From Lachnospiraceae bacterium (GTDB lineage Bacteria > Bacillota > Clostridia > Lachnospirales > Lachnospiraceae), in contig JAAUZL010000019.1 in the NCBI GenBank assembly GCA_014804615.1, positions 47,578 through 81,253 of the forward strand: a stretch of 33,676 bases of DNA, written 5' to 3'. The notes below the pieces were generated by a model. That model had not been told where the DNA came from. It did not search any database and was given only the letters and a program-made list of their open reading frames with translations. Below, in pieces: positions 15,858-33,676 of the stretch; position 1 is the first letter of the stretch, and each line of letters begins with the position of its first letter. Position numbers and translations under genes: made by a program.

Positions 15858-16793
15858 ATGGAACAACAGCCTTCTCTTCTAAAAGAAATCCGTACTCACG
15901 GAACCAGCTCTTTTCCCTGTGCGATTTATCGGACGCATTTTGAGGGAAAAGGCAGGCTGGTGAAGCATCACTGGCACGATGAGGCGGAGATCCTCTATTT
16001 TTCCGGCGGGAAATTTCGGCTGGAAATCAATATGGAAGCTTTTCTGGTGGAATCGGAATGTCTCTTTTTTCTCAATCCCGGCGAACTGCACAGCATTATG
16101 ACCGAGTCATCGGAGAGCCACTGGGAGGATGCTGTCGTCTTTTCCACCGATATTCTCAGTTTCGATTCCTGCGATGAAGCGCAGATTCATCTGATCAAGC
16201 CCATGCAGAAGGGAAAGCTGCTCTTTCCTCGCTGTATCATGCCGGAGCATCCGGCCTTTGCTCCTGTCAGGGATGCGTTTTTGGATATTATGCGCTCTTT
16301 CGGGCAGATGGCGCAGGAGGATTCTCTCGCTGTGGACAGCAGTCTGGTCACAAATGACTTGACCAGTCAATTATATATCAAATCTTCCCTGCTATATATC
16401 ATCGCCACACTCTCCGGCAGCGGGCTGTTTGTACCTACGGAAAGGAACATGGACAAGCGTGTGGAGAGTATCAAGACCGCCCTGACTTATATCAGGGAGA
16501 ATTATCGGGAGAAGATCTATATTGCGGATCTGGCGGGACAGGTGAATCTGAATGAGCAGTATTTCTGCCGTCTTTTCAAAAAGGCTATCGGGAGTTCTCC
16601 GATCGAATATATCAATGAATACCGGATCAAGCAGGCGAAAACACTTCTGGAGGAGTCAGACCTGCCGGTCACGGAGGTCTGTATGGAATGCGGCTATAAC
16701 AATCTTGGCAATTTTCTGCGGGAATTCCGTAAGCATTCCGGCATGACACCCCTACAATACAGGAAATGTTCTCAAAAAGTCAAAATACCGTAG
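15858..16793 (+). CDS. AraC-family transcriptional regulator with a cupin-type sensor domain
   Basis: The 311-residue regulator has an N-terminal cupin-like sensor (about residues 20-130, with HWHDEAEILYFSGGKF and FFLNPGELHSI). The C-terminal AraC DNA-binding domain has two helix-turn-helix units: first KIYIADLAGQVNLNEQYFCRLFKK, second LPVTEVCMECGYNNLGNFLREFRK, then GMTPLQYR. The start at 15858 has AAAGGAG 7 bases upstream. It stands 138 bases before two alpha-glucosidase genes on the same strand, so it most likely activates them in response to a sugar bound by the cupin domain. The ligand is not evident. Confidence 0.92.
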   Translation: MEQQPSLLKEIRTHGTSSFPCAIYRTHFEGKGRLVKHHWHDEAEILYFSGGKFRLEINMEAFLVESECLFFLNPGELHSIMTESSESHWEDAVVFSTDILSFDSCDEAQIHLIKPMQKGKLLFPRCIMPEHPAFAPVRDAFLDIMRSFGQMAQEDSLAVDSSLVTNDLTSQLYIKSSLLYIIATLSGSGLFVPTERNMDKRVESIKTALTYIRENYREKIYIADLAGQVNLNEQYFCRLFKKAIGSSPIEYINEYRIKQAKTLLEESDLPVTEVCMECGYNNLGNFLREFRKHSGMTPLQYRKCSQKVKIP

Positions 16794-16931
16794 TTTTTAA
16801 TCATATAATTGGAAGATATTCTGCCACTGTGTCAGTAAAATGTATTTAGCAAGCATCCGATGAGATTGGACAGAGAGCGCTGAAAGCGCGTGTTTGCGGG
16901 TATGAGTATAGAAAAACGCAGGAGGCACGGT

Positions 16932-18605
16932 ATGATCAAAAAATGGTGGCATGACAAAGTAGCATATCAAATATATCCCAAAAGCTTTTATGATTCCAAC
17001 GGGGACGGCATCGGCGATATTCCGGGCATTATCAGCAAATTGGATTATCTGCATGATCTGGGCGTGGACATTGTCTGGCTGTCTCCCTGTTACAAGTCGC
17101 CTCTGGCTGACCAGGGCTACGACATCTCGGACTATTACAGCATCGATCCCCGGTTCGGCACGATGGAGGACATGGATCGGCTGATCGCCGAGGCAAAAAA
17201 GAGAAATATGTACATATTGATGGACCTGGTGGTAAATCACTGTTCCGATGAGCATGAGTGGTTTCGGAAGGCATGTGAAGACCCGGAGGGAAAATACGGC
17301 CGTTATTTTTACTTGAGAGATAAAAAGGAGGGCGAGCTGCCTACCAACTGGCGTTCCTATTTCGGCGGACCCGTATGGGAGGACCTGCCGGGCACCGATA
17401 AGCAGTATCTTCATGTGTTCCATAAAAAGCAGCCCGATCTGAACTGGGAAAATCCCGAACTGCGGGAGGAAGTGTACAAAAACATCAACTGGTGGCTGGA
17501 TAGGGGGCTTGGCGGCTTTCGCATCGACGCCATTATCAATATCAAAAAACCGCTGTCTTTCCACGATTATGAGCCCGATCGGGATGACGGGCTTTGCAGT
17601 ATTTTTGCCATGCTGCAGGAGGCCAGAGGAATCGGCGAGTTCCTGGGGGAGATGCGGGACCGCACTTTCAAGAAATACGATGCCTTTGCCGTGGGGGAGG
17701 TATTTAACGAGAAGCCGGAGGAGATACCGGATTTTATCGGGGACAACGGTTATTTTTCCAGCATGTTTGACTTTAATGAAACCATATTCGGCCACAGCGA
17801 AAAGGGCTGGTATGACGCAAAGCCCATTACCCCGGACGATTACAAGAGATGTTGCTTTGAGTCGCAGGCGAAGGTGAAAGAAATCGGGTTTTTGTCCAAC
17901 ATTATCGAGAATCACGATGAGCCGAGGGGTGTCAGCCGCTATATTCCCGAGGGGGATTGCTGCCCGGAGAGTAAGAAAATGCTGGCGGCATTAAACTTTA
18001 TGCTGCGGGGACTTCCTTTTATCTATCAGGGGCAGGAGCTGGGGATGGAAAATGTGCCCATATCTTCTATCGATGAGGTGGACGATATCTCCGCCCGGGA
18101 CGAGTACAGAGTAGCGTTGGAGGCAGGCCTTTCCCCGGAGGAGGCGCTGCAGGTGATTGCCCGCTCCAGTCGGGACAACGCCCGCACACCGATGCAGTGG
18201 ACCGGCGGGGAGAATGCCGGATTTACAGCCGGTACGCCCTGGCTTAAGGTCAATCCGAACTATGCGGACATCAATGTGGAGGCAGAACTTGCGGATGAAA
18301 ACTCTGTTCTTCATTTTTATAAAAAGCTGATTGCTCTTCGAAAAGACCCCGCGTACAAAGAGACTGTCGTGTACGGGGCGCTCGAACCGGTGTGGGAAGA
18401 AAAGCACAATTTGATGGCATACTACAGAAAAGGGGATAAGACTCTGCTGGTGATCGGCAATTACCAGAGGCAGGGGCAGGAGATCGTGCTCCCGGCGGCT
18501 TATCGGAAGGTGTTGTTAAATAACTATGCGGATATTGCGGAGGAGAACGGTGTGATCCGCATGCACGGGTATCAGGTATTAGTGTTGGAGATGGAGGAAT
18601 CATGA
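16932..18605 (+). CDS. GH13_31 alpha-glucosidase, predicted alpha-1,4 preference
   Basis: The 557-residue cytoplasmic enzyme (no signal peptide) starts IKKWWHDKVAYQIYPKSF. The GH13 catalytic set is Asp199 (GFRIDAI), Glu256 (VGEVF) and Asp329 (NHDEPR), with DLVVNHCSDEH and QPDLNWENP typical of subfamily 31. Residue 200, just after the nucleophile, is Ala. In this subfamily Val there goes with alpha-1,6 and Ala or Thr with alpha-1,4 hydrolysis, so a maltase-like preference is predicted. The start at 16932 is set by AGGAGG 6 bases upstream; the longer frame from 16890 lacks a site. TGAAAGCG at 16881 resembles half of a catabolite control (cre) site, but the other half is poor. It overlaps the next gene by 4 bases. 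Confidence 0.92.
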   Translation: MIKKWWHDKVAYQIYPKSFYDSNGDGIGDIPGIISKLDYLHDLGVDIVWLSPCYKSPLADQGYDISDYYSIDPRFGTMEDMDRLIAEAKKRNMYILMDLVVNHCSDEHEWFRKACEDPEGKYGRYFYLRDKKEGELPTNWRSYFGGPVWEDLPGTDKQYLHVFHKKQPDLNWENPELREEVYKNINWWLDRGLGGFRIDAIINIKKPLSFHDYEPDRDDGLCSIFAMLQEARGIGEFLGEMRDRTFKKYDAFAVGEVFNEKPEEIPDFIGDNGYFSSMFDFNETIFGHSEKGWYDAKPITPDDYKRCCFESQAKVKEIGFLSNIIENHDEPRGVSRYIPEGDCCPESKKMLAALNFMLRGLPFIYQGQELGMENVPISSIDEVDDISARDEYRVALEAGLSPEEALQVIARSSRDNARTPMQWTGGENAGFTAGTPWLKVNPNYADINVEAELADENSVLHFYKKLIALRKDPAYKETVVYGALEPVWEEKHNLMAYYRKGDKTLLVIGNYQRQGQEIVLPAAYRKVLLNNYADIAEENGVIRMHGYQVLVLEMEES

Positions 18606-20272
18606 TGAACAGAACGTGGTGGAAGGAAGCAGTTATTTATCAGATTTATCCCCGCAGCTTTATGGACAGCAACGGGGATGGCATTGGGGATCTGCAGGGG
18701 ATCATCAGCAGGCTGGATTACCTGAAATATCTGGGGATCGATGTGATCTGGCTCTCCCCTGTTTACAAGTCCCCGAATGACGACAACGGATACGATATCA
18801 GCGATTATCGCGCGATCATGGATGAGTTCGGCACCATGGAGGATTTCGATGCGCTGCTTGCAGGCGCTCATGACCGCGGTATCAAAATTGTCATGGATCT
18901 GGTGGTGAATCACACCTCTGACGAACATAAGTGGTTCATGGAGAGCCGTAAGTCTAAAGACAACGAATATCGGGATTACTATATCTGGCGTGACGGGAAG
19001 GACGACCGGAACCCGCCCAACAATTGGGGGGCCTGCTTCGGTGGTTCCGCCTGGCAGTATGACGAAGAGACGGCGATGTACTACCTGCATCTTTTTTCCA
19101 AAAAGCAGCCCGACTTAAACTGGGATAATCCCAAAGTGCGGGAAGAAGTCTTCGACATGATGAGATGGTGGTGCGACAAGGGCATTGACGGTTTCCGCAT
19201 GGATGTGATCAGCATGATCTCCAAGACGGCCCAGATGCCGGACGGGGAGATAAACGGCCTGTACGGGGATTTCGGCCCTTACTGTGTCCACGGACCCAAC
19301 GTACACAAGTATCTGCAGGAGATGAACGAGAAGGTACTTTCTCAGTATGACATTATGACCGTGGGTGAGACAGCCGGCGTGACCACCGAATTGGCGAAAC
19401 AGTACGCAGGGGAGGATGCCCATGAGTTGAATATGGTGTTTCAGTTCGAGCATGTGGAGAGCGATGGCAAGTACGGAAAATGGACAGACGAGAAAATGCC
19501 CCTCACAACCTTGAAGAAGACTTTGTCCCGCTGGCAGACCGATCTGTATGGGAAGGCATGGAACAGCTTGTTCTGGGACAATCACGATCAGCCCAGAGCC
19601 GTGTCCCGCTTCGGGGACGACAGACCTCAGTATCGGGAAATGTCCGCAAAGATGCTGGCCACCTGTCTGCATATGCTGCAGGGTACGCCCTATGTTTATC
19701 AGGGTGAGGAGCTGGGCATGACCAACTATCCTTTCCAAACGCCCGATGATTTCCGGGATATCGAGAGCATCAACGCCTATCGGGAGTGGTGCACTGAGGG
19801 ACAGCTCTCCCATGAGGTTTTCTGGCCCTGCATCACTTTCAAGAGCCGGGACAACGCCAGGACGCCGGTGCAGTGGGACGATTCCGAGAATGCCGGATTT
19901 ACCACGGGAACGCCATGGATTGCTGTCAATCCCAATTATAAGGAGATCAACGCCAAAGCGGAGACGGCGGATCCCGATTCTGTGTTTCACTACTATAAAA
20001 AGCTGATCGCGCTTAGAAAACAGAATCCGGTCATGGTGTACGGGAAATATGAGCCGCTTCTTATGGAAAGCGAAGAGCTTTTCGCCTATACCAGAACTTT
20101 AGAAGAGACGAAACTGCTTGTGGTGTGCAGCTTCTGTGACCATGAGACGACATTTGCCATCCCGGAAGAATTTCAGGGCGCCCCCTGTCTGATCTCCAAC
20201 AGAGAGCGGAGCTATGAGGGCGCGGAAATCACACTGGAGGCGTATGAGGCGTTTGTACTGTGTAAGAAATAA
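18602..20272 (+). CDS. GH13_31 oligo-1,6-glucosidase-like enzyme, predicted alpha-1,6 preference
   Basis: The 556-residue paralog of the preceding gene starts NRTWWKEAVIYQIYPRSF. Its catalytic residues are Asp201 (GFRMDVI), Glu256 (VGETAG) and Asp329 (NHDQPR). The residue after the nucleophile is Val, as in oligo-1,6-glucosidase and dextran glucosidase, so isomaltose, isomalto-oligosaccharides or panose are likely substrates. Its ATG lies in an ATGA overlap with the upstream stop, and GGAGG precedes it, implying coupled translation. The two enzymes would clear alpha-1,4 and alpha-1,6 linked oligosaccharides together. A terminator follows 20 bases after the stop. Trehalose-6-phosphate hydrolase is a possible alternative. 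Confidence 0.92.
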   Translation: MMNRTWWKEAVIYQIYPRSFMDSNGDGIGDLQGIISRLDYLKYLGIDVIWLSPVYKSPNDDNGYDISDYRAIMDEFGTMEDFDALLAGAHDRGIKIVMDLVVNHTSDEHKWFMESRKSKDNEYRDYYIWRDGKDDRNPPNNWGACFGGSAWQYDEETAMYYLHLFSKKQPDLNWDNPKVREEVFDMMRWWCDKGIDGFRMDVISMISKTAQMPDGEINGLYGDFGPYCVHGPNVHKYLQEMNEKVLSQYDIMTVGETAGVTTELAKQYAGEDAHELNMVFQFEHVESDGKYGKWTDEKMPLTTLKKTLSRWQTDLYGKAWNSLFWDNHDQPRAVSRFGDDRPQYREMSAKMLATCLHMLQGTPYVYQGEELGMTNYPFQTPDDFRDIESINAYREWCTEGQLSHEVFWPCITFKSRDNARTPVQWDDSENAGFTTGTPWIAVNPNYKEINAKAETADPDSVFHYYKKLIALRKQNPVMVYGKYEPLLMESEELFAYTRTLEETKLLVVCSFCDHETTFAIPEEFQGAPCLISNRERSYEGAEITLEAYEAFVLCKK

Positions 20273-20292
20273 AAAAAAGATACCAAACTGAT

Positions 20293-20322
20293 AAAAGATA
20301 CCTTATGGGTATCTTTTTTTTT
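20293..20322 (+). terminator. Rho-independent terminator after the alpha-glucosidase operon
   Basis: AAAAGATACC (20293-20302) pairs with GGTATCTTTT (20308-20317) around a 5-base loop and runs into a T tract. A second copy of AAAAGATACC ends at 20284 and could pair with the same right arm, giving two mutually exclusive stems. This separates the alpha-glucosidase operon from the beta-glucan phosphorylase genes. The 78 bases from here to the next ATG are AT-rich with no clear promoter pair. Confidence 0.8.
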
Positions 20323-20400: not shown

Positions 20401-23127
20401 ATGGATGGATATCATTTTTTGGATGATCAGGGAACTTTTGTACTGAATATGCCGGAGAACTACAGTTATCAGTATTTCCCGGTAGCAGGTGAAAAGGGAA
20501 TCAAAAGTGCGCTGACACCTGACCTTGGAGGGGACAGCAAACGAAACCAGAATGAATTTATTCTGGAGCCGGTCAGTGTGGAAAATCTGCATAATAACCG
20601 CTCCACCAGGAATTTCTGGTGTCATATAGAGGACATCGGAGACTGGTCTGCGACAGGGGCCTCGGCGGAGGCGGAGCAGGATAAATTCACGGATATGCAG
20701 GACGAAAGCACGATGACGGCGGGATTGATGTGGCAGAGTGTCACACGCATTTCCCGCAAATATCAGCTGAAAGCGAAGGTAACTTCCTTTGTGCCGGTGG
20801 ATCATGATGTGGAGATCATGCGGGTGGAACTGACCAATGTCGGAGAGAAACCGATTGCGTTTGTGCCAACGGCGGCCATTCCGATCTACGGGAGAAGCGC
20901 GGACAATATCCGGGATCACAGGCATGTCACATCACTGCTGCACCGTATCCGAGTAGTTGAGGAAGGGGTGATGGTTACGCCGACGCTCTCCTTTGATGAG
21001 AGGGGACATCAGAAGAATAACATCAGTTATTTTGTTTGCGGCGTGACGGGAGAGGGCGAGGCCCCCAAAGCTTTCTTTCCGACGGCGGAGGAATTTATCG
21101 GAGAGGGCGGCAGTTATACCAGACCGCGGGCCGTTTGGGCAGATTACCCGGGTATCTCGGCAGGGAAGATGATAGAAGGGAAAGAGGCGGTGGGCGGTCT
21201 GAAGTTTGCAAAGACTGTGCTTGAGCCAGAGAAAAGCACCTCCTTTACGATACTTTTAGGGGCGACAGAAAACCCGGAGGAAATAGAGAAAATCATAAAT
21301 GCGTACCGGACGACAGACAAGGTGGAGGCTGCATTAGCAAAAACGAAGGTTTACTGGCAGGAAAAGGTTAATATCACGTATCATACGGGAAATCAGGATT
21401 TTGACAATTTTATGAGATGGGTGAGCTTTCAGCCTATCTTGCGGAGAATATACGGCTGTTCCTTCCTTCCCTACCATGATTACGGAAAAGGCGGCCGTGG
21501 ATGGCGGGATCTCTGGCAGGACTGTCTCGCTCTTCTTTTGATGAATCCGGAGGGCGTACGGCAGATGCTTTTAGACAATTTTGGCGGCGTGCGGATGGAC
21601 GGGACAAACGCCACCATCATCGGCGCAGGACAGGGAGAGTTTATTGCAGACAGAAATAACATTACGCGGGTGTGGATGGATCACGGTGTGTGGCCCTTTA
21701 TGACGACGAAGCTGTATATGGATCAGACCGGGGACATCGAGATACTTGAGGAAAAAGTGTCGTATTTTAAGGACAGACAGGTGGAGCGCGGGTTCGCGGT
21801 AGATGAACAGTGGGATGATGCGTACGGCAGCCGGCAGAAGGACAGAAACGGCGTCGTTTACTACGGAACCGTTCTGGAACATTTACTCCTACAGAATTTA
21901 TGTGCATTCTATGAGGTCGGCGAGCACAACCAATGCCGACTGCGTGGGGCAGACTGGAATGATGCGCTGGATATGGCGCAGGAGCGCGGCGAAAGTGTTG
22001 CATTCACCAATGCCTATGCGGGTAATTTGCATGATCTGGCGGAGTATTTGGAGCGCTATGGAGACAGGACGGGAAAAACGGAAATATTCATCGCGGAGGA
22101 AATGCTGCAGCTCTTGCACATGGACAGGACAAAATATGACAGCCGGGAGGAAAAGAATCAGGTGCTTTCCCGATACGGAGAGGTATGTCGACATTCGGTG
22201 AGCGGGAAGACCGTCGCCGTCAAGATTGACAGTCTGGCTGAGAATCTGCGCGAAAAAGCGGATTGGATGAGAAATCATATCAATCAGACGGAGTGGGTGA
22301 CGGATCAGGACGGAGACGGATGGTTCAACGGCTATTACGACAATCATGGCAGACAGGTGGAGGGTGAGAACGAGAGCGGTGTGCGTATGATGCTGACAGG
22401 GCAGGTTTTTGCGATCATGGGTGGTACGGCGGATGAAGAACGGATTCGAAGCATTGCGAGAAGCACGGATAAATATCTGTATGACAGGCATGTGGGAGGC
22501 TACCGCCTGAATACGGACTTCCATGAGATGAAAACGGATCTGGGGAGAATGTTTGGTTTTGCCTACGGCGAGAAAGAAAACGGGGCGGTCTTTTCCCACA
22601 TGACAGTCATGTATGCCAATGCGCTGTACAAACGAGGATTTGCAAGAAAAGGATATAAAGCGCTGCAGACCTTGGCAGATACGGCGATGGATTTTGAAAC
22701 GAGTAAGATCTATCCCGGCATTCCGGAGTATTTTAACGCCAAAGGGCGAGGTATGTATCACTATCTGACCGGGGCGGCAAGCTGGTACATGCTGACAGTT
22801 GTGACAGAGGTATTTGGTGTCAGAGGAAAAGCAGGAGATCTGGAGATCGTTCCGGCACTCATGAAAGAACAGTTTGATGATGAGGGAAAAGCAGAGATGG
22901 AACTCCTTTTCGCGGGGAAGAAATTCCACATCGTCATGAAAAATCCGGAAGGGCTGGAGTATGAAGACTATCGCATCTGTTACGCGGCGATAGACGGCAG
23001 AGAGGTCGTGCTTGCAAAAGAGCAGCGCGTAAGCGAAAAAACGGCGGTTAAGGCAGTGATCAGAAAGGCAGAAATAGAAGCGCTTTCCGAGGACGTACAT
23101 AAAATAGAAATTTTGCTGGAGGCATGA
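20401..23127 (+). CDS. GH94 phosphorylase, laminaribiose phosphorylase-like
   Basis: The 908-residue cytoplasmic enzyme is close to the size of known laminaribiose phosphorylases (about 900). It resembles them through the N-terminal half ([46 protein letters not shown]). These differ from cellobiose phosphorylase, which is shorter and has another N-terminus. The (alpha/alpha)6 catalytic part has [17 protein letters not shown] and [12 protein letters not shown], whose second Asp (about 521) is the expected general acid. Predicted reaction: laminaribiose plus phosphate to glucose 1-phosphate and glucose. It is followed at 13 bases by a larger clan member. GAGGGG lies 7 bases before the ATG. The family is firm; beta-1,3 specificity is inferred from similarity and context. 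Confidence 0.82.
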
Positions 23128-23140
23128 AAAGAGGGTGAGT

Positions 23141-26100
23141 ATGAGACAAGATCAGAAAAAATATATCATGAAAGATTACGGCAGAAAGTCAACGTTTGCG
23201 AGCTTTTTGCCGGGAATTGCAGGGGTTCGGGGCATTCCGATCTGGTGTTACTATGTGAATCGCGGTCAATGTGTGGTCAGCTTTGGTGTGGACAATAAGG
23301 ACAGTGCGATCATGGAGTTTTATCCGGCTCATGTGGCCTATCAGAATGTAAAGCGGACGGGATTCCGCACATTCCTTCGTAAAGACGGAAAGTATATGGA
23401 ATGTTTTTCCGAAGAGAAGCTTGCACAGAAGATGGAGATCGGAATGAACGGCCTGTCCATACAGGAAGTAAATGAAGCGGAAAAACTGCTTGTGAAAGTA
23501 GATTATTTCACGCTTCCGGGGGAGAAGGTGGGCGCTCTTGTCAGAAAAGTGACGGTGACGAATCAGGAGAATCGGGAGATTTCATTGGAAATTCTGGATG
23601 GTATGCCGGCACTGATCCCCTATGGCGTAGACGATGACAACCTGAAAAATATGACGCAGACTGCGAAAGCGTGGATGCAGGTGGAGGATCTGGAGGGGAA
23701 TGTGCCCTTTTTCCGTGTGCGGGCAAGTATAGAAGACACGGCAGCGGTGCGGGCAATTGAGAGCGGTAATTTTTCCTTCGCGTGTTTGGAGGATGGAACT
23801 CTGTTAAAACCGGTTGTCGATCCGGAAGCGATTTTTGTTTATGATTGCTCTTTGCAAACAGCGGTTTGCTTTGCAGAGAATGGCATTTCGGGCGTATATG
23901 CGCAGAAGCAGAATACGATGAATCTTTTGCCTTGCAGTTTCTACGGCGCACAGAAACCCCTGGCTTCTGGCGAATCGATCGTTCTGTATGAAGTCATCGG
24001 CCAGGTGAAAAACAAAGCGTGCTTAAAGCAGTTTATGGAAGAAAAAAAGGACGGCGCCTATTTTGAAGAAAAACGGGAAGAGGCGGAAAGCCTTATGGAG
24101 GAGCTTTGCAGCGGCATTGCGACGAAAACGGCTTCGGAGAGCTTTGACACCTACTGTCAATATACCTATATGGACAATGTGCTTCGGGGCGGGTATCCGA
24201 TGTTACTGGGAAATAACAAGCTGTATTATGTGTATTCCAGAAAGCACGGAGATCTGGAGCGGGATTACAACTATTTCTCCATGCTGCCGGAATTTTTTTC
24301 GCAGGGCAACGGCAATTTCCGTGACGTGAATCAAAACCGGCGCTGTGATACATTCTTTGCACCCTTTGTCGACAGAGAGAACATTAAGGAATTTTACAGT
24401 CTGATCCAGCTGGACGGCTATAATCCTCTGGGTGTGGAAAAGATTACATACAGGCTGGAGCAGGAAAAGGCAAAGACCCTGTTCGGGGAGCTGGATGATA
24501 CGGCGGCCGCAGAGCTTGTAAAATTTGTTGACAGACCGTTTACGCCGGGCGCATTGTGGGCAAAGTTAGACGATGTGTTAGGAGAATGGAAAGAACCTTT
24601 GTTTTATCAGATCATTGACTTTGCGGACAGCATGGTGAACGGCAGCTTCGGGGAAGGATATTGGAGTGATCATTGGACCTATAATCTGGATCTGATAGAG
24701 GATTATCTGGAAATCAATCCGGAAAAGGAAAGAGAAATGCTTTATGAGGAGGACTACACCTATTTCCTTTCCCAGATCAACATCAATCAGCGAAAGAAAC
24801 GCTATGTGGAGACAGAGAACGGGCTGCGCCAATATCAGGCATTGAATGAGGAGAGCAAGAGAAATACGGAGGAGAAGCTGGTCCGGGCACAATTCGGCAG
24901 CGGAGAAGTGATCCGTGTAACCTTGATGGAAAAGCTGCTCTTATTATGCGCCGCAAAGTTCGCCGCGCTGGACGCCTATGGGATGGGCGTTGAGATGGAG
25001 GGAGGAAAACCGGGATGGTATGACGCGTTGAACGGATTGCCGGCCGTTTTCGGATCTTCCATGGCGGAGACATATGAACTGGCGAGGATGCTGCACTATA
25101 CAGTTTCTGCACTGGAAAAATATCCTGCGGAGGTGGCAGTCACAGAGGAACTTGCCAATTTTATTGACGAACTGCAGCTGATCGTACGTTTGGAAAAAGA
25201 AAATCTGGCAGGAGACGGAGAAGTGCTTTCGTTTTGGAACCGCATTAATGATGTGAAGGAGCTTTACCGGGATAAGACGTTTGCAGGCATTTCGGGTCAG
25301 AGAAGAGATTATCGGAGTGAAGAGCTTGCGGCAGTATTAAGAGAATGGGAGACGGTTGTGAGGCATGGCATAGAAAAGGCCTGCGCTTATGGGGAGGGCG
25401 TCTGCCCGACTTATTTCTCCTATGAAGTGTCGGAATATGAAAAGAAACAGGATGGTATCTATCCGCTTCGATTTGAAGTAAAGTGCATTCCGGCCTTTTT
25501 GGAGGGTCCGGTACGGTATTTAAAACTGGATATGTCAAAGGACAGCAAGAAGAGCCTGTATGAGAAGGTGAAGAACAGTGATCTGTATGACAGAAAGTTA
25601 TCCATGTATAAGGTAAATGCCTCTCTGGAACAGGCATCCTATGAGCTTGGCAGAGCGCGCGCGTTTACGCCCGGCTGGCTGGAGAATGAGTCGATCTGGC
25701 TGCATATGGAGTACAAGTATCTGCTGGAACTGTTGAGAAGCGGTATGTATGAAGAATTTTTTGCAGATTTTCATATGGCGGCGGTTCCGTTCCTGGATCC
25801 TGAGATCTACGGGAGAAGTATATATGAAAACTCTTCCTTTATTGCAAGCAGCAGAAATCCCAACGAGAAGATTCACGGGAAAGGATTTGTGGCGAGACTT
25901 TCTGGCTCCACCATTGAATTTATCAGTATGTGGAAGCTGATGATGTTCGGAAGAAATGTGTTCGGATTAAAGAATGATGAACTTGTCTTCTCGCCCAGTC
26001 CGGCGATCCCGGCATATCTGATTCCGGAGGATAGAGTAGTTTTGGCTACACTTCTTGGTGAGATTGCAGTCGAATACCGAATGGAAGAAAAAAGGGATTA

Positions 26101-26248
26101 TATACCGGGAACTTATGCGGTGAAAGATATGAAGTTTATCTATAAAAATAAGAACGAGGTCAATGTGAATGCGGAATGTGTCAGCGGGAAGCTGGCGGAG
26201 GATGTCCGGGCAAGACGGGTAGAACGGATCGAAATTCTGCTTGGATAA
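23141..26248 (+). CDS. GH94-clan glucan phosphorylase, probable beta-1,3-oligoglucan type (GH149/GH161)
   Basis: The 1035-residue cytoplasmic protein opens with [16 protein letters not shown] and [20 protein letters not shown], a beta-sandwich start known to me from large Firmicutes proteins annotated cellobiose phosphorylase. The middle has [15 protein letters not shown] and [11 protein letters not shown]. The catalytic region has [18 protein letters not shown] and [18 protein letters not shown], whose Asp (about 628) is the candidate acid. Size and motifs fit the GH149/GH161 beta-1,3-oligoglucan phosphorylases of clan GH-Q better than GH94 beta-1,2-oligoglucan phosphorylase, whose sequence differs as I remember it. 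It would shorten longer laminari-oligosaccharides that the upstream disaccharide enzyme handles poorly. The ATG at 23141 is preferred over a GTG at 23135. Confidence 0.7.
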
Positions 26249-26291
26249 AAGAGAAAGAACAATCTACAGGAAAGGTATGAGGTGATTACAA

Positions 26292-27623
26292 ATGGGTAAG
26301 ATCAGACAGATTATCACAGATTACAGTGCCGGAAAAATGTGGGAGGAGACCGTGCATGAGTCGGGGACAGTACAGGATTGTATGCATGTCATCAATGTGT
26401 ATCCCGATGCGGAGTACCAGACAATACGAGGATTTGGCGGGGCGTTTACCGAGAGCGCGGCGCACAATTATGCCGGTATGAGTGAAGGAAAAAGGAAAGA
26501 GCTTGCGGCGGCATATTTTGGGCAGGAAGGACTTCGCTATCATCTGGGCAGGGTTCATATGAACAGCTGTGATTTTGCGCTGGGAAATTATGCTTATGTG
26601 GAGGACGGGGATGCGGAACTCACGACTTTTTCCATCGCCCATGACTTCGAGGAGATCATTCCCCTGATTCAGGATGCGCAGAAGGAAGCCGGGAAGGATA
26701 TGGTATTTCTGGTATCACCCTGGTCTCCGCCGGCATTCATGAAGACAAACGGGGAGATGAATAACGGCGGGAAGCTGAAGGAAGAGTTTTATCCGGCCTG
26801 GGCAGCATATTTTGTAAAGTTCATCAAGTCTTATCGGGAGGCAGGAATACCGATCGGATTCCTGACGGTGCAGAACGAACCTATGGCAGTACAGACTTGG
26901 GATTCCTGCATTTATACATCGGAGGAGGAAGCGGTCTTCGTAAGAGAGCACCTGGGACCTGCGCTGGAACGAGAAGGACTTTCGGATATAGGTATCTTTG
27001 TGTGGGATCACAACAAGGAGGAGGCATACCAGCGTTTTAAGGAAGTGGCGGCGGACGAAGAGACCGGGAAGTATATCCGGGGCGCGGCGCTGCACTGGTA
27101 TACGGGGGATCATTTTGACGCGATAGAACTGATCCGCAGGAAATATCCCGACAAAGAGGTGTTTTTTACGGAAGGATGTGTGGAGTATTCCCGATTCGCA
27201 GATTCAGGCGAGGTGGAGAAGGCGGAAATGTATGCGCATGACATTCTGGGGAACCTGAATGCGGGTATCAGCGCATCCTATGACTGGAATCTGTTCCTGG
27301 ATCAAAAGGGCGGGCCCAATCATGTGGGTAATTTCTGTGCGGCTCCGATCATGTGCAATGCGGAAGAAGATACCTATGAAAAGCGTCTGACCTACTATTA
27401 TATAGGACATTTCAGCCGCTACATCGAGCCGGGAGCTGTAAGGATCGGTACGACGAGATACACAGATGCGGTGGAGGTGACTGCGTTCAGGAATCCGAAC
27501 GGGGAAAAAGTGCTTGTTTTACTGAATAAGACGAATGAGGAAGTCCCGGTCACCATACGGGAAGCAGGATGCGGAATGGAAACCGTGATCGGGCCGCATT
27601 CCATTCAGACAATCTGCTACTGA
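26292..27623 (+). CDS. GH30-family beta-glycosidase (cytoplasmic)
   Basis: The 443-residue clan A enzyme has FGGAFTESAAHNYAGM near residue 45, FLVSPWSPPAFMKTNGEM, acid/base Glu196 in TVQNEP and nucleophile Glu294 in FFTEGC. The end, VLLNKTNEEVPVTIREAG, is the usual small beta domain. Bacterial GH30 members include glucosylceramidase-like beta-glucosidases and beta-1,6-glucanases. With no signal peptide it must act on imported oligosaccharides. Next to two glucan phosphorylases, removal of beta-1,6-linked glucose branches is the most sensible role, but beta-xylosidase or fucosidase activity cannot be excluded. GAGGTGA upstream supports this start. It lies 43 bases after the phosphorylase gene, probably in the same operon. 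Confidence 0.85.
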   Translation: MGKIRQIITDYSAGKMWEETVHESGTVQDCMHVINVYPDAEYQTIRGFGGAFTESAAHNYAGMSEGKRKELAAAYFGQEGLRYHLGRVHMNSCDFALGNYAYVEDGDAELTTFSIAHDFEEIIPLIQDAQKEAGKDMVFLVSPWSPPAFMKTNGEMNNGGKLKEEFYPAWAAYFVKFIKSYREAGIPIGFLTVQNEPMAVQTWDSCIYTSEEEAVFVREHLGPALEREGLSDIGIFVWDHNKEEAYQRFKEVAADEETGKYIRGAALHWYTGDHFDAIELIRRKYPDKEVFFTEGCVEYSRFADSGEVEKAEMYAHDILGNLNAGISASYDWNLFLDQKGGPNHVGNFCAAPIMCNAEEDTYEKRLTYYYIGHFSRYIEPGAVRIGTTRYTDAVEVTAFRNPNGEKVLVLLNKTNEEVPVTIREAGCGMETVIGPHSIQTICY

Positions 27624-27628
27624 AAAAA

Positions 27629-27682
27629 TGATACCTTTGTAAAATTTGAGACATTATAACCAAAGTGATACCTATATATAAT
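27629..27682 (+). promoter_or_regulatory. Candidate activator-dependent promoter of the oligosaccharide importer
   Basis: The 114-base gap before the binding-protein gene holds a TATAAT at 27677-27682 without a good -35. Upstream are two direct repeats of TGATACCT, at 27629-27636 and 27666-27673, 37 bases apart. Direct repeats around a poor -35 are typical of AraC-type activators, including response regulators paired with YesM-type kinases. No terminator is visible here, so read-through from the GH30 gene is also possible. Confidence 0.4.
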
Positions 27683-27737: not shown

Positions 27738-29189
27738 ATGAAACTGAAAAAACTGATGGCAATCATGCTTGCCGGAACCATGGTATTTGGATTGACGGCT
27801 TGTGGCGGCGGATCATCTGCCGGCAGCACAGGAAGTGACAGCGGAAGCGCTTCTTCCGGTGCGGCAGCAGAAGATGACGGAGCAGCGGCAGGAGATGACG
27901 GAGCAGCAGCCGACACCGCATCATCAAGCGGAGAAAAACTGGTAGTCTGGACATTAGCAGCGGATCTGGAGCAGTTCGCGGAATATTATAAGGAAAAGAC
28001 AGGCAATGATGTGGAGACGGTTGTCATCGAGCCGGCTAACTATGTGACTAAGGTGCAGACAGCATTAAACGGCGGACAGAAAGAACCTGATATCATCGTA
28101 GGCGAGCCGCAGATGCTGGAGGATTTTTACGATGCGGGTTACTTTGAGGATCTGAACCAGGCGCCCTACAATGCGCAGGATTACGCAGATCAGATCGTGG
28201 ATTATGTCTGGGAGGTTGGACAGGATTCGGATGGCATTCAGAGAGCGATCTCCTATCAGATCACACCGGCGGGTATCTATTACAGAAGAGACATTGCACA
28301 GACGGTGTTCGGCACGGATGATCCCGATGAAATCGGCAAATTGTTTGCTGACTATCCGACCATTCTGAATACAGCTCAGACATTGAAGGATGCGGGCTAT
28401 CGGATTTTTGCTTCCGATGCGGAGATCAATTATTTCTCCGGCGACTCGGCTTGGGTAATCGACGGCGTGCTGAATGTGGATGAGGGAAGAAAAGAGTATC
28501 AGAATCTCTGTATTTCCCTTTACCAGGATGATTACACAGCATATGCGAACCAGTGGTCCACTCCCTGGTATCAGGCAATGGCAGGCGAGGTGCCGATCCT
28601 TTCCGCAGATATCCAGAACTATGCGGATGATTCCGTAAACGTATGGGATGCAGAGCAGTTCGCAGAGGCAACAGCCGGCATGGATAAGACAGAAGTGTTT
28701 GCATTCGGTCTTCCTTCCTGGGGTGTGCTTACCATGAGAGATAATGTGCAGGATACTTCCGGCAAGTGGGGCGTGTGCTCCGGTCCGGCTTACGGCTTCG
28801 GTGGTGGTACTTTCATCGGTATCTCTTCCCTGTCCGATAGAAAAGAGCAGGCATGGGATTTCCTGAAGTTCTGTACCCTCAATGAGGACACTGCAAACTG
28901 GTGGATCGAGAAATCCGAGGGTGATACCGTATCTCTGATCCCGGTACTGGAGGCTCATGCGGATGACGCAAACGAAGTTTACGGCGGACAGCAGCTCTAT
29001 AAGTTCTGGCTGGAGCAGGCAAAGGGCATCGACTATTCCAAGGTTACCAGATATGACAAGTTTATCGGTGACGAGTGGGGAAGAGCGACCACAGCGATCA
29101 AGACCGGTGAGATGAACAAGGAAGAGGCATGGAACGAGTTCTATGACCAGATTGAGGCTACATATCCGGAAATCACGGTTAACAGATAA
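27738..29189 (+). CDS. CUT1 sugar ABC transporter substrate-binding lipoprotein
   Basis: The 483-residue precursor has a lipoprotein signal: MKLKKLMAIMLAGTMVFGLTAC, with the lipidated cysteine at 22. A low-complexity Gly/Ser/Ala/Asp linker follows to about residue 65. The mature binding domain starts KLVVWTLAADLEQFAEYYKEKTG and includes GGQKEPDIIVGEPQMLEDF, as in oligosaccharide-binding proteins of the CUT1 class. AAAGGAGG gives a very strong ribosome site. Two permease genes follow. It would capture oligosaccharides outside the membrane; the preceding intracellular phosphorylases suggest beta-gluco-oligosaccharides. The Asp/Trp-rich middle (DSAWVIDG, QWSTPWYQAM) is consistent with aromatic stacking on sugars. 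Confidence 0.92.
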   Translation: MKLKKLMAIMLAGTMVFGLTACGGGSSAGSTGSDSGSASSGAAAEDDGAAAGDDGAAADTASSSGEKLVVWTLAADLEQFAEYYKEKTGNDVETVVIEPANYVTKVQTALNGGQKEPDIIVGEPQMLEDFYDAGYFEDLNQAPYNAQDYADQIVDYVWEVGQDSDGIQRAISYQITPAGIYYRRDIAQTVFGTDDPDEIGKLFADYPTILNTAQTLKDAGYRIFASDAEINYFSGDSAWVIDGVLNVDEGRKEYQNLCISLYQDDYTAYANQWSTPWYQAMAGEVPILSADIQNYADDSVNVWDAEQFAEATAGMDKTEVFAFGLPSWGVLTMRDNVQDTSGKWGVCSGPAYGFGGGTFIGISSLSDRKEQAWDFLKFCTLNEDTANWWIEKSEGDTVSLIPVLEAHADDANEVYGGQQLYKFWLEQAKGIDYSKVTRYDKFIGDEWGRATTAIKTGEMNKEEAWNEFYDQIEATYPEITVNR

Positions 29190-29203
29190 TGATTGAGGGG
29201 AGG

Positions 29204-29228
29204 AGGGGGCAGCCAGGCGCGGCCCCCT
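29204..29228 (+). promoter_or_regulatory. GC-rich hairpin between binding protein and permease genes
   Basis: AGGGGGC (29204-29210) and GCCCCCT (29222-29228) form a 7 bp stem with an 11-base loop, followed only by TT. As after the binding-protein gene at 1-1035, it lies a few bases past the stop codon. It fits mRNA 3'-end protection, or partial termination that keeps binding protein in excess over permease. Confidence 0.6.
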
Positions 29229-29252
29229 TTGCTCTGTGAGACGGAGGGAAAT

Positions 29253-30176
29253 ATGGCAAAAACAAATGCGGGGAAAGCAAAAAAAAGAGATTTGAATCGA
29301 ATAGCCTATCTGTTTGTGCTGCCTTTTGTGATCGTCTTTCTGACGTTCAACGTATATCCGGTGCTGCGCACGTTCTATTTGAGTTTTACCAACTATAAAG
29401 GTTTCGGAGATGCGACATGGGCAGGACTTGACAACTACATAAGGGTCTTTAAGGATAAATTTTTCTGGAGAGCTCTGAAAAACACCATAAAAATATGGGG
29501 TGTGAATATCATACTTCAGCTGGGATTGGCCTTTTTGCTTACGGTGATCTTCAGCGATATTAAATACAAGATCCGTGGATTAGGGATCTTTCGAGCGGTG
29601 TATTATCTGCCGAATCTGATCGCGGCGACTTCCGTGGCCTTTCTGTTTAAGACACTGCTTGACTGGAAGTACGGCAGCTTTAACCAGCTTCTGCTGACAC
29701 TGGGAATCACGAAAGAGCAGGTCAACTGGCTTGGGTCTACGGGAACGGCGCCTTATGTGATCTCGGTGATCGGTGCCTGGATGTGGTTCGGTAATTCCTT
29801 TATCATGCTGATGGCAGGCGTACAGGGCATTTCGACAGACTATTTTGAAGCGGCGGCCATCGACGGCGCCGGCAGATGGAAGGTGTTTGCAAAGATAACA
29901 CTGCCCTTGCTTCGACCGATCATGCTTTATGTTTTCGTGACTTCCCTGATCGGCGGCCTGCAGCTGTTCGACCTGCCCTTCCTGATGAACGGCGTTGCGC
30001 CAAACACGGCGGGAGAGCCTTCGGGGTGCCTGCAGACAGCGGTTATGTATCTTTACAAGTTTGGTTTTGAGACGCATCAGGTGGGATACGCTTCGGCGAT
30101 CGCCTACACGCTGTTCTTTATTATTCTGATCGTGTCCATCATCCAGTTTAAGACATTGGGAAGGGAGGATGACTAG
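29253..30176 (+). CDS. CUT1 sugar ABC transporter permease, MalF type
   Basis: The 307-residue membrane protein has a basic N-terminus and about six helices, starting RIAYLFVLPFVIVFLTFNVYPV. The cytoplasmic ATPase-docking motif is EAAAIDGAGRWKVFAKITLPLLRP. The start at 29253 (MAKTNAGKAKKRD) follows GGAGGGA; the in-frame codons upstream overlap the intergenic hairpin and read as non-protein. It pairs with the permease starting at 30178 to form a heterodimeric channel. No ATPase gene accompanies them, so a shared MsmK-like ATPase encoded elsewhere is expected, as is common for Firmicutes CUT1 importers. Confidence 0.92.
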   Translation: MAKTNAGKAKKRDLNRIAYLFVLPFVIVFLTFNVYPVLRTFYLSFTNYKGFGDATWAGLDNYIRVFKDKFFWRALKNTIKIWGVNIILQLGLAFLLTVIFSDIKYKIRGLGIFRAVYYLPNLIAATSVAFLFKTLLDWKYGSFNQLLLTLGITKEQVNWLGSTGTAPYVISVIGAWMWFGNSFIMLMAGVQGISTDYFEAAAIDGAGRWKVFAKITLPLLRPIMLYVFVTSLIGGLQLFDLPFLMNGVAPNTAGEPSGCLQTAVMYLYKFGFETHQVGYASAIAYTLFFIILIVSIIQFKTLGREDD

Positions 30177-30177
30177 T

Positions 30178-31005
30178 ATGGCAACGAAGGTTAAAAAAGG
30201 AATTATTTATGCTTGTCTGATTCTGCTTGCATTGATATGCTTCCTCCCGTTTCTGCTGATGATGGTGAATGCGACGAGAAGCGGCGTGGAGATCACCCAT
30301 TCTTTTACGCTCATTCCCAGCAATCATCTGGCTGAGAACTGGACGGCGCTGTTTGAATATGTGAATCTGTTTTTGGGTTTTAAAAACAGCCTTCTGGTAG
30401 CCATACCGGCGACCATACTGACAGCTTATTTCTCGTCGATCACGGCGTATGCTATGGCGGTATATCGCTTTAAGGGCAATGGCTGGCTGTTTAAAATACT
30501 CGTAGTGTTTATGATGATTCCTGCGCAGCTGAGTCTGATCGGATTTTACAATCTCTGTCAGAAGCTGCATATGGTGGATTCTTATCTGCCGTTGATCATT
30601 CCCGCGATCGCGGCGCCCGGCACAGTGTTCTTCCTGCGCCAGTATGTGCAGTCCACATTATCCAAGGCTCTGCTGGAGGCGGCAAGAATCGACGGTGCAG
30701 GTGAGCTGCATATCTTCCATAAGATAGTGCTCCCGATCATGGCGCCCGGTATCGCGACCATGTCGATCGGTTCCTTTATCGGTAACTGGAACAACTATCT
30801 GGTGCCGTTGATCTTATTAAATACACCGAAAAAGATGACGCTGCCGGTTATGATAAGTACACTGAATGCAGCGACGGATCTGCAGAAGAATCAGGGCGCG
30901 ATCTATCTGGGCGTTGCCATTTCTGTAGTACCGATCCTGATCGTGTTCTGCTTCTGCTCTAAATACATTATCAGTAGTATATCGGCAGGAAGCGTGAAGG
31001 AATAA
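30178..31005 (+). CDS. CUT1 sugar ABC transporter permease, MalG type
   Basis: The 275-residue membrane protein has six predicted helices, the docking motif LEAARIDGAGELHIFHKIVLPIMAP, and the typical C-terminal segment SKYIISSISAGSVKE. I chose the ATG at 30178, one base after the upstream stop, because GGGAGG at 30163-30168 is 9 bases away. The ATG at 30169 touches that site and overlaps the previous gene. It completes the importer with the MalF-type partner. A terminator follows within 30 bases, so it ends the operon. Confidence 0.92.
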   Translation: MATKVKKGIIYACLILLALICFLPFLLMMVNATRSGVEITHSFTLIPSNHLAENWTALFEYVNLFLGFKNSLLVAIPATILTAYFSSITAYAMAVYRFKGNGWLFKILVVFMMIPAQLSLIGFYNLCQKLHMVDSYLPLIIPAIAAPGTVFFLRQYVQSTLSKALLEAARIDGAGELHIFHKIVLPIMAPGIATMSIGSFIGNWNNYLVPLILLNTPKKMTLPVMISTLNAATDLQKNQGAIYLGVAISVVPILIVFCFCSKYIISSISAGSVKE

Positions 31006-31033
31006 AACAGAACACAGGAAAAATAGAAGAGAT

Positions 31034-31072
31034 AAAAGGCAGTATATCCTGACGGAGTACTGCCTTTTGTTG
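31034..31072 (+). terminator. Terminator after the importer operon
   Basis: AAAAGGCAGTA (31034-31044) and TACTGCCTTTT (31058-31068) form an 11 bp perfect stem with a 13-base loop. The T residues lie within the right arm. A promoter for the next unit begins 26 bases later, so this is a clear transcription boundary. Confidence 0.8.
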
Positions 31073-31093: not shown

Positions 31094-31122
31094 TTGAAAT
31101 AGAATGTTAATAGCTTTATACT
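31094..31122 (+). promoter_or_regulatory. Promoter of the sensory lipoprotein and kinase operon
   Basis: TTGAAA (31094-31099), 17-base spacer, TATACT (31117-31122), with a further TATAAT at 31124. It is close to consensus, suggesting constitutive expression of the sensor unit. An in-frame ATG at 31104 lies inside this promoter, which rules it out as the start of the next gene. Confidence 0.75.
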
Positions 31123-31169
31123 ATATAATAGGAATATTTATGGAAGATTGCAGGAACGGAAGGATAAAA

Positions 31170-32804
31170 GTGAAAAGAAAAAACAAAAAAAGTGTTTTGA
31201 CAACTATTTTTTTGATTTTACTATGTCTGCTTGGGATGGGCTGTGCAGAGAATGAGCAGACATCGGAGGAGCCGGAGCCGGGTTTATTGGATGAAGATGC
31301 TCCGGCCTGGCAGAAATATGCCGGAGAACCGGTTGACTTTGACTGGTATATCAATTATTCGTGGTTTGCGGCTGACTGGGGAGAAAATATTGTTTCCAGA
31401 AAAATTACGGAGGAGACAGGGGTAAGCCTGCGCTTTATTACACCCGGCGGGAACGAAAGCGAGAAGCTGAATGCGCTGATTGCCGCGAATTCTCTGCCGG
31501 ATTTCATTACGCTTGGCTGGTGGGAGCCGCAGATCAATGAGATGATAGACCGGGATATGGTCTATGCCTTAAACGCGCTTGCGGATGAATATGATCCCTG
31601 TTTTTATCAGGTCAGCAACGCCGATGCGGTCAGCTGGTACACGCAGGAGGATGGGAACATTTATTCCTATCCCAATTCCAGCTACAGCGCAAAGGATCTG
31701 GAGGAGCATGACAATATCGGCTCCAATCAGACTTTTTTGGTGCGGAAAGATATTTATGAGGCGATCGGAAGCCCTGACATGACGACGCCGGAGGGATTTC
31801 AGGCAGCGGTGGAGAAAGCGTACGAAATGTTTCCGACGGTGGACGGGGAGCCGCTGATTCCGGTGGGAGCCCATGTCTTTAACGATCAGGGAAATGTGTC
31901 CTTTGACAAATATTTGATGAACTTTCTGGCGGTGCCTTTTGAGGAGAACGGCAGGGTCTATGATCGCTATACGAACGAGGATTATATCATTTGGCTGAAA
32001 ATGTTTCGCAGACTCGGAGAGGAAGGTCTGCTTGCCAATGATATTTTTATCGACCAGAGAACCCAGATGGAAGAAAAGCTGGCAAAAGGAAGATATTTCT
32101 GCATGATCTATCAGTCTACGGATATGGTGACACAGCAAAAGGAACTCTATGTGAATCACCCGGACCGGATCTATCTTGCGGTAGACGGGCCAAAAAATGC
32201 GGCGGGTGACGATCACACGCTCACCACTACCGGGATCAATGGATGGACAGTTACCCTGATATCAAAAAATTGTGAGAACCCGGAGCGCGCCATTGCCTTC
32301 TTGGATTATCTGCTCAGTGAACAGGGTCAGCTTCGCATCTGTCTTGGCGTGGAGGGGGAGACTTTTGATTATGTGGATGGGAAGCCGGTAGTGAAGGAAG
32401 ATGTCAAGGCGGTTTTAAACTCTGACCGTGCAGAATATGACAGATTGTATGGTGCGGATGACACCTATTGGATGCTGCAGGATGATGTGACGCAGCTGCA
32501 ATGGAAACAGGAGACAGCGGAGCCTTTGAGACAGGTTTCGGAATGGTCTTATCCGTATGCGGTTTATAATGGACAGTATGATTCTTTTCTTCCGTATGGC
32601 TCAAAGGAGGCTTTTGCAGAGAATAAAATAATAGCGCTATGGAGTGAGACACTGCCCGCACTGCTGCTTGCGGAGTCGGAGGAGCGTTTTGATGAAATAT
32701 TTGCCCAGTTTCTGGAGCAGAGAGAAGCTTATGGCTTTGAGGAAGTGCAGGCGGTGAAGACGGAATTGATGGAGAAGGCGAAAGAAAAGCTGGGAATGCA
32801 GTAA
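31170..32804 (+). CDS. Extracellular solute-binding lipoprotein without its own permeases
   Basis: The precursor of about 544 residues starts with a basic, hydrophobic signal (KRKNKKSVLTTIFLILLCLL) and a lipobox-like GMGC. A Glu/Pro-rich linker follows, then a large binding domain: PVDFDWYINYSW, EETGVSLRFITPGG, IAANSLPDFITLGWWEPQ. The GTG at 31170 is the best start: AAGGA lies 5 bases upstream and the frame further back is promoter. It belongs to the large CUT1 binding proteins of the LipO/YtcQ kind. No permease follows; the stop codon abuts a histidine kinase gene. It is therefore probably the ligand-catching partner of that sensor. It could also serve the importer just upstream. Confidence 0.85.
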   Translation: MKRKNKKSVLTTIFLILLCLLGMGCAENEQTSEEPEPGLLDEDAPAWQKYAGEPVDFDWYINYSWFAADWGENIVSRKITEETGVSLRFITPGGNESEKLNALIAANSLPDFITLGWWEPQINEMIDRDMVYALNALADEYDPCFYQVSNADAVSWYTQEDGNIYSYPNSSYSAKDLEEHDNIGSNQTFLVRKDIYEAIGSPDMTTPEGFQAAVEKAYEMFPTVDGEPLIPVGAHVFNDQGNVSFDKYLMNFLAVPFEENGRVYDRYTNEDYIIWLKMFRRLGEEGLLANDIFIDQRTQMEEKLAKGRYFCMIYQSTDMVTQQKELYVNHPDRIYLAVDGPKNAAGDDHTLTTTGINGWTVTLISKNCENPERAIAFLDYLLSEQGQLRICLGVEGETFDYVDGKPVVKEDVKAVLNSDRAEYDRLYGADDTYWMLQDDVTQLQWKQETAEPLRQVSEWSYPYAVYNGQYDSFLPYGSKEAFAENKIIALWSETLPALLLAESEERFDEIFAQFLEQREAYGFEEVQAVKTELMEKAKEKLGMQ

Positions 32805-33676
32805 ATGATGAAAACGGATTGGATGAAAAAGTTAAGCGGACTAAAACTGAACGGGAAGTTTACGCTGGTTATTGTTTTCCTTGTTATTTTGCCGATTTCC
32901 GTTATGGCAGGCGTTTTGTTTTATAATATGGAGAAAAGTGTCATCAGCGAAAACCGGAACTATATGCAGTATATGATGGAGCGCAGTCAGGATACTTTAT
33001 TGGATAATATTGATTCTGTCAATATGACGACGCAGTTTTTTCTGAATGATGAGCCCCTTCTGCAGATGCTCCGCCAAACAGCACGCCAGGAGCAGATACA
33101 GACGGACGAACTGGTGGCGTTTTATCACTCAGACATTGCCGCGTTGGAGAGGCTTGTCTATAACAACACATTGTTGTACGGTGTGCGTGTCTATGCGGTC
33201 AATGACAATGTGCAGGAAATGATGCCCATTTTATACAGTCGTTCCCGTATGAATAAAATGGATTGGGCGGGTGAGCCGGATTATACGGGGTGGCACTATA
33301 ACTATCCGGACAGGCTGTTTGATAACCGTGAGGGAACGAAAATTGCGTCCCTTGTAACGAATGTGGAAGATTATGAAGCCGGACTGATCGGCGTGATCGA
33401 GACGACAGTCGCAATAGAGGATATTTTTCCTTCCCTGTATGAGACGATCGAAGACGAGTGGAGCTGTTTTATCTCGGAGGAGGGGAATCTGTATTTTGGC
33501 GATAATGAGCAGGAAAGTTCCGCGGAGTTTGTGCGGGCCAAAATGGAAAAGGGATTTGAGAAAGACGGCATCCATACGGAATATATAAAGCAGAACGGAG
33601 AACATCTTATTGTTTCCTATTCTTATATCCGGGAAATGCAGGGGACTCTGGTATCCGTAAAGGATATCACGGAAGC
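32805..33676 (+). CDS. Sensor histidine kinase, YesM-like, N-terminal part (3' truncated)
   Basis: The frame is open from the ATG at 32805 to the end of the window (290 complete codons). A short cytoplasmic start (MMKTDWMKKLSGLKLNGKF) is followed by one membrane helix (TLVIVFLVILPISVMAGVLF, about residues 20-40). A long external domain with helical and Cache-like character comes next (NYMQYMMERSQDTLLDNID, NVEDYEAGLIGVIETTVAIEDIF). This is the layout of YesM-type kinases, whose HAMP and kinase domains would lie beyond base 33676. The ATG directly follows the TAA of the lipoprotein gene (TAAATGATG), so translation is coupled. An AraC-type response regulator is expected next. Confidence 0.78.
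   Translation, partial: MMKTDWMKKLSGLKLNGKFTLVIVFLVILPISVMAGVLFYNMEKSVISENRNYMQYMMERSQDTLLDNIDSVNMTTQFFLNDEPLLQMLRQTARQEQIQTDELVAFYHSDIAALERLVYNNTLLYGVRVYAVNDNVQEMMPILYSRSRMNKMDWAGEPDYTGWHYNYPDRLFDNREGTKIASLVTNVEDYEAGLIGVIETTVAIEDIFPSLYETIEDEWSCFISEEGNLYFGDNEQESSAEFVRAKMEKGFEKDGIHTEYIKQNGEHLIVSYSYIREMQGTLVSVKDITE

Follow-up and report, generated by a model that had tools for sequence, protein, structure and literature searches.

In the CuaDSR system of Ruminiclostridium cellulolyticum, mutants, two-hybrid assays, and calorimetry showed that CuaD, encoded beside a kinase and a regulator, is a sensing solute-binding protein (SBP), and a separate transport SBP, CuaA, is encoded in the induced operon (PMC10384115). 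Known SBP-kinase systems have been sorted into one-SBP and two-SBP types, and the same source also cites a two-SBP system from Geobacillus (PMC10384115). In a 2022 survey, only about ten characterized examples were counted in which an SBP activates a sensor kinase (PMC9602780). Tandems of GH94 and GH161 are described separately as beta-1,3-glucan-degrading clusters, with GH30 and ABC permeases (PMC6484121).

Here, a stretch of 33,676 nucleotides from a Lachnospiraceae bacterium (G000:C19:47578-81253, referred to as the window) was analyzed, and the genome was read onward past its end. The genes for a lipoprotein of the SBP class, a histidine kinase, and a response regulator form one apparent operon, as judged from gene order and spacing; this operon is free of permease genes, and a second SBP is encoded in the adjacent importer operon (27738-31005) (Table 1). 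Comparison of sequences provides good support for a two-SBP three-component sensor, of a known kind but in a new family, with a likely specificity for beta-1,3-glucan. This gut-type organism seems to detect external beta-1,3-glucan sugars through a binding protein freed from transport and paired with a sensor kinase.

Gene content of the beta-glucan locus and the sensor operon

Table 1. Features of the locus (window positions unless a contig is named)
Feature	Position	Strand	Evidence or remark
Second copy of the 37-bp element, upstream of GH94	20268-20304	+	GATACC repeated 18 bp apart
GH94, laminaribiose phosphorylase type	20401-23127	+	Best solved match 6ggy, 1022 bits
GH161, beta-1,3-oligoglucan phosphorylase type	23135-26248	+	9qqk/9h8v, about 1589 bits, over its length
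GH30, glucosidase type	26292-27623	+	
Conserved 37-bp element, proposed response-regulator operator	27619-27655	+	Ends at -35 position of importer promoter; -10 TATAAT at 27677-27682
Importer solute-binding lipoprotein	27738-29189	+	Best solved match Lin1841
Importer permease 1	29193-30176	+	
Importer permease 2	30169-31005	+	
Intrinsic terminator between importer and sensor operons	about 31031-31071	+	Folding, -22.6 kcal/mol, z -5.35
Sensor operon promoter, sigma-A type, TTGAAA-17-TATACT	31094-31122	+	Promoter scan and orthologue comparison
Sensor solute-binding lipoprotein, 544 aa, SBP_bac_1	31170-32804	+	Lipobox Cys25; likely GTG start
YesM-type histidine kinase, N-terminal part (TM1, double-Cache ectodomain)	32805-33676	+	Gene runs on to G000:C19:82163; 593 aa
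AraC-type response regulator, REC and HTH_AraC	G000:C19:82179-83663		Directly after the kinase

The set of GH94, GH161, and GH30 genes, together with the published GH94-GH161 clusters, makes a beta-1,3-gluco-oligosaccharide the likely substrate of the locus. The signal could instead be another glucan sugar, e.g., sophorose or a mixed-linkage oligosaccharide, as the best solved match of the importer SBP is, at low similarity, Lin1841, which we take to bind beta-1,2-glucan oligosaccharides. This is unlikely in view of the laminaribiose phosphorylase-type GH94, the GH161, and the GH30 at the locus and of the GH16 proteins that relatives carry behind the same regulatory element. A search for GH16 in the genome of the organism itself found none, and any extracellular enzyme would consequently come from another family. 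Upstream of the beta-glucan cluster, positions 15858 to 20272 of the window hold genes for an AraC-type regulator and two members of the GH13 alpha-amylase family.

The strong terminator that the initial annotation had placed between the importer and the sensor genes was recovered by folding and missed by a terminator scan. The well-formed promoter that it had described was also confirmed: chance yields as many matches as the promoter scan of the window, but of five close relatives, four (L025, L026, L028, and L029) have the same promoter at the orthologous site, and it is altered in the fifth (L027). The lipoprotein reading frame is open from ATG 31104, which was rejected as the start because this codon sits within the promoter. 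GTG 31170 is the likely start, since it is preceded by GGAAGGA and gives an N terminus (MKRKNKKS...LLGMGC) that ends in a lipobox, LGMGC. The stop codon (32802-32804) abuts the kinase ATG at 32805 with zero gap, exactly as had been read from the window. NCBIfam provided no name for the lipoprotein. By structure comparison, its closest folds are oligosaccharide-binding SBPs, including AlgQ1/AlgQ2, a GAG-binding SBP, and FusA.

Beyond the window, the extended sequence completed the YesM-type kinase and supplied the response regulator that had been expected. The kinase carries His_kinase (PF06580) and HATPase domains, the HATPase match scoring under its Pfam cut-off, and two transmembrane (TM) helices flank an ectodomain modeled with a pLDDT of 94.8 and a double-Cache fold. 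Six PF06580 kinases are encoded in this genome. The genes 3' of the kinase are the response regulator, a convergent LacI-like/GGDEF gene, and clpB rather than a permease pair, and no permease was found between the lipoprotein and the kinase or downstream as far as clpB, in keeping with the permease-free unit described at the outset. A fused read-through model of the lipoprotein and the kinase ectodomain reached a pTM of 0.73; as no inter-domain error estimate accompanied it, this value is silent on docking.

The convergent gene (minus strand, L002:7718-10129, equivalent to G000:C19:83717-86128) encodes a LacI-like ligand domain, with no recognized DNA-binding domain, and GGDEF. Such a gene directly follows the regulator at 52 of the 119 regulator loci, with the motif SGDEF or GGDEF where found, and its product is plausibly a cytosolic sugar-responsive diguanylate cyclase. 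Past the window end, the L002 record contains scattered N (189 in 5.7 kb); the window itself contains 0.

A candidate operator and the proposed signaling path

A conserved 37-bp element with the consensus ACTAAAAAAATGAYACC-TTTnTAAAA-tttgngtCATT precedes the importer genes. Its end at the -35 position, before the TATAAT at 27677, fits the expectation for an activator site. Repeats at 27629 and 27666 had been put forward as regulator targets; the former is the core of the element, but the latter is absent from orthologous promoters and was ruled out as a site, the true second copy being that upstream of GH94.

The distribution of the element was determined with a weight matrix refined on the upstream regions of importer SBP, GH94, and LplB genes, which was used in place of an earlier strict regular expression that matched only 14 of 64 loci. 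The element was present in all 61 importer-SBP upstream regions (each at least 25.6 bits; shuffled regions peak at 14.4 bits), in 17 of 28 regions upstream of GH94, in 1 of 34 upstream of LacI/GGDEF at a lenient threshold, and in 0 of 81 upstream of the sensor SBP. Scanning 1.6 Mb located additional sites upstream of LplB-type permease operons and of five large proteins outside the training set, all five of which contain GH16. In the genome of the organism itself, a longer pattern of the element matches only the two cluster sites. Across the genus (77 genomes), 14 of the 18 genomes with the regulator or the lipoprotein contain exact matches, versus 0 of 59 with neither (Fisher 3.6e-12, kinship among genomes ignored). 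Two genomes that kept the regulator alone of the sensor genes (G027 and G084) retain the element before their phosphorylases. On the strength of this distribution, we propose that the element is the operator for the response regulator. In Butyrivibrio (L111:6419, L112:6566, and L123:6330), the element is a near-perfect inverted repeat (AAAAATGACACC...GGTGTCATTTTT) and was matched on both strands.

We predict the following sequence of events. The lipoprotein would bind a beta-1,3-gluco-oligosaccharide outside the cell (laminaribiose or a short laminari-oligosaccharide) and, once loaded, would dock on the double-Cache ectodomain of the kinase encoded next to it. This kinase would phosphorylate the AraC-type response regulator, which would bind the elements at 27619 and 20268 and switch on both the phosphorylase operon (20401-27623) and the importer operon. 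Since the sensor operon is driven by a promoter of its own that lacks the element, it is probably made before induction. We assign a probability of about 0.8 to such a three-component sensor, in which the loaded lipoprotein acts through the kinase and the regulator turns on both operons.

Conservation and loss of the lipoprotein and kinase

A scan of a genome collection returned 80 related loci, mostly from Lachnospiraceae, and the kinase directly follows the lipoprotein in nearly all of them. The usual order in this set is [GH94-GH161-(GH30)]-importer SBP-permease-permease, followed by sensor SBP-kinase-regulator. In a minority (L136, L138, L142, L145, and L155, together with L030 and L031, which belong to other families), LplB-type permeases stand directly before the sensor SBP and there is no separate importer SBP. 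A few loci, e.g., L116, L126, L139, L250, and L254, have no recognized ABC permease nearby; at L116, an MFS gene and unrelated genes are present. A double-Cache chemoreceptor is encoded between the regulator and GH94 of one LplB-type locus (L136:9760-11871), and a similar-sized gene occupies this position in L138 and L155; the same sugar may also drive chemotaxis in L136.

The lipoprotein might be a second transport SBP, serving the neighboring importer or a distant LplB-type permease, with its place beside the kinase incidental. Orthologues from Anaerocolumna-type genomes and from two further families do lie directly behind LplB-type permeases, and four LplB-type permeases are encoded in the genome of the organism itself. 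However, these four are just 34 to 41% identical to the orthologous permease, at least three of them adjoin a putative SBP of their own, and the neighboring importer already has its own SBP. The lipoprotein, moreover, was never found without the kinase, yet was found without a recognized nearby ABC permease in the loci listed above. We consider an incidental placement very unlikely.

Regulator loci were surveyed in 397 genomes of the family and 77 of the genus. The raw tally (both genes, 91; neither, 11; kinase only, 4; lipoprotein only, 1) was corrected for L104, scored as lipoprotein only, which has a kinase, and for L247 (neither) and L258 (kinase only), which end at contig ends. Among the 105 scorable loci, 92 have the lipoprotein and the kinase, 10 have neither, 3 have the kinase alone (L170, L235, and L251; full length in the last two), and 0 have the lipoprotein alone. 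The ten double-loss loci represent four lineages on the regulator tree (G027/G084; G068; G072/G073/G023; and G026/G065/G069/G090). Genome searches of G027, G084, G068, G072, G073, G023, and G026 found the lipoprotein absent and no kinase orthologue, and G065, G069, and G090 have a lipoprotein orthologue, in a full system, at another locus. As the two genes are adjacent, a single deletion with no bearing on function could account for some of the co-losses. In the orphan regulator of G027 (L168:15574-17073), Glu replaces the phospho-acceptor Asp and Asn is present within the acidic pair, and these changes may render it independent of phosphorylation.

In G070, the lipoprotein is missing and TM1 of the kinase is joined in frame to TM2 by a short loop. 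The ectodomain is about 243 residues shorter than that of L026, and the kinase core shares 84% identity with its counterpart in a close relative. Retention of TM1 and of the kinase start implies two deletions, in a case represented by one assembly, because the sister genome G067 is interrupted there by a contig end.

These losses bear on whether the ectodomain of the kinase itself detects a small molecule, with the lipoprotein merely tuning the response. Double-Cache domains often bind small ligands themselves, the ectodomain has this fold, and L235 and L251 hold the kinase and no lipoprotein. The R. cellulolyticum kinase, overproduced without CuaD, still allowed some induction, but the CuaS ectodomain bound CuaD and had no affinity for cellobiose or cellotetraose (PMC10384115). 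The loss of the ectodomain along with the lipoprotein in G070 also argues against direct sensing, to which we give little credence. The proposed presentation of a sugar to the kinase by the lipoprotein, which the initial annotation had suggested, is supported by conservation, by co-loss with the kinase (once with the ectodomain), and, by analogy, by the CuaDSR precedent.

Origin of the sensor lipoprotein and comparison with known systems

Several lines of evidence bear on the origin of the lipoprotein. First, its stop codon is at most 47 nt from the kinase start, often overlapping, in 76 of 78 loci with an own-SBP importer versus 96 to 339 nt in 10 of 10 LplB-type loci (p 5e-7, kinship ignored). 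Second, a terminator-like hairpin (-12 kcal/mol or better in a folding scan) separates the lipoprotein from the kinase in 7 of 10 LplB-type loci versus 0 of 78 others and the permease from the lipoprotein in 37 of 73 importer-type versus 1 of 18 LplB-type loci; independent switches being few, these spacing and terminator statistics describe few events. Third, every more distant relative on the SBP tree is LplB linked, and the importer-type members group largely in a single clade, with the exception of L252, on a long branch. Across sensor-only and permease-linked lipoproteins, 119 alignment columns, 30 of them aromatic, are invariant.

A transport SBP that changed operon appears to be the simplest reading of the tree, spacing, and terminators. 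As reconstructed from the tree, the lipoprotein would derive from the SBP that served LplB-type permeases in transport; uptake would have passed to an importer equipped with an SBP of its own, and the old SBP would have become cotranscribed with the kinase. We lean toward the view that one orthologous lipoprotein changed jobs in this way, from LplB-type transport SBP to dedicated receptor subunit in the kinase operon once the own-SBP importer had arrived, with terminator and promoter now on the importer side. If true, the switch would explain how two-SBP three-component systems originated from one-SBP ones, and the family studied here seems to include both types. With its unusually clear evolutionary record, the family opens the question of how dedicated sensor SBPs arose to testing. 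To the few characterized cases it contributes a large group of conserved members for which a class of ligand is likely and a candidate operator is at hand, and among which deletion variants occur naturally. The use of beta-1,3-glucan by Lachnospiraceae bears on gut and rumen ecology.

The two-SBP system of Geobacillus is presumably AraPST of Geobacillus stearothermophilus. In AraPST, a separate sensing SBP is encoded with the kinase and regulator; the likeness lies in this arrangement, and the sugar differs (arabinose/arabinan). The GH94-GH161 clusters of PMC6484121 share with this locus the tandem phosphorylases, GH30, and ABC permeases, and a word search of that paper found no mention of a two-component system. 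In XylFII-LytST of Clostridium beijerinckii, an SBP is bound to the kinase ectodomain and the transport SBP is separate (PMC10384115, PMC9602780); here too the likeness lies in the arrangement, and the sugar, xylose, is different. CuaD, at 410 aa, binds cellobiose and shares 28% identity with XBP1 (PMC10384115), unlike the 544-aa, AlgQ-like SBP described here, whose sugar is likely beta-1,3 linked. As in CuaDSR, an operon for an SBP, a kinase, and an AraC/YesN-type regulator lies beside an importer operon with its own SBP and a disaccharide phosphorylase, and the constitutive expression of CuaDSR (PMC10384115) is matched here by a sensor promoter without the candidate operator.
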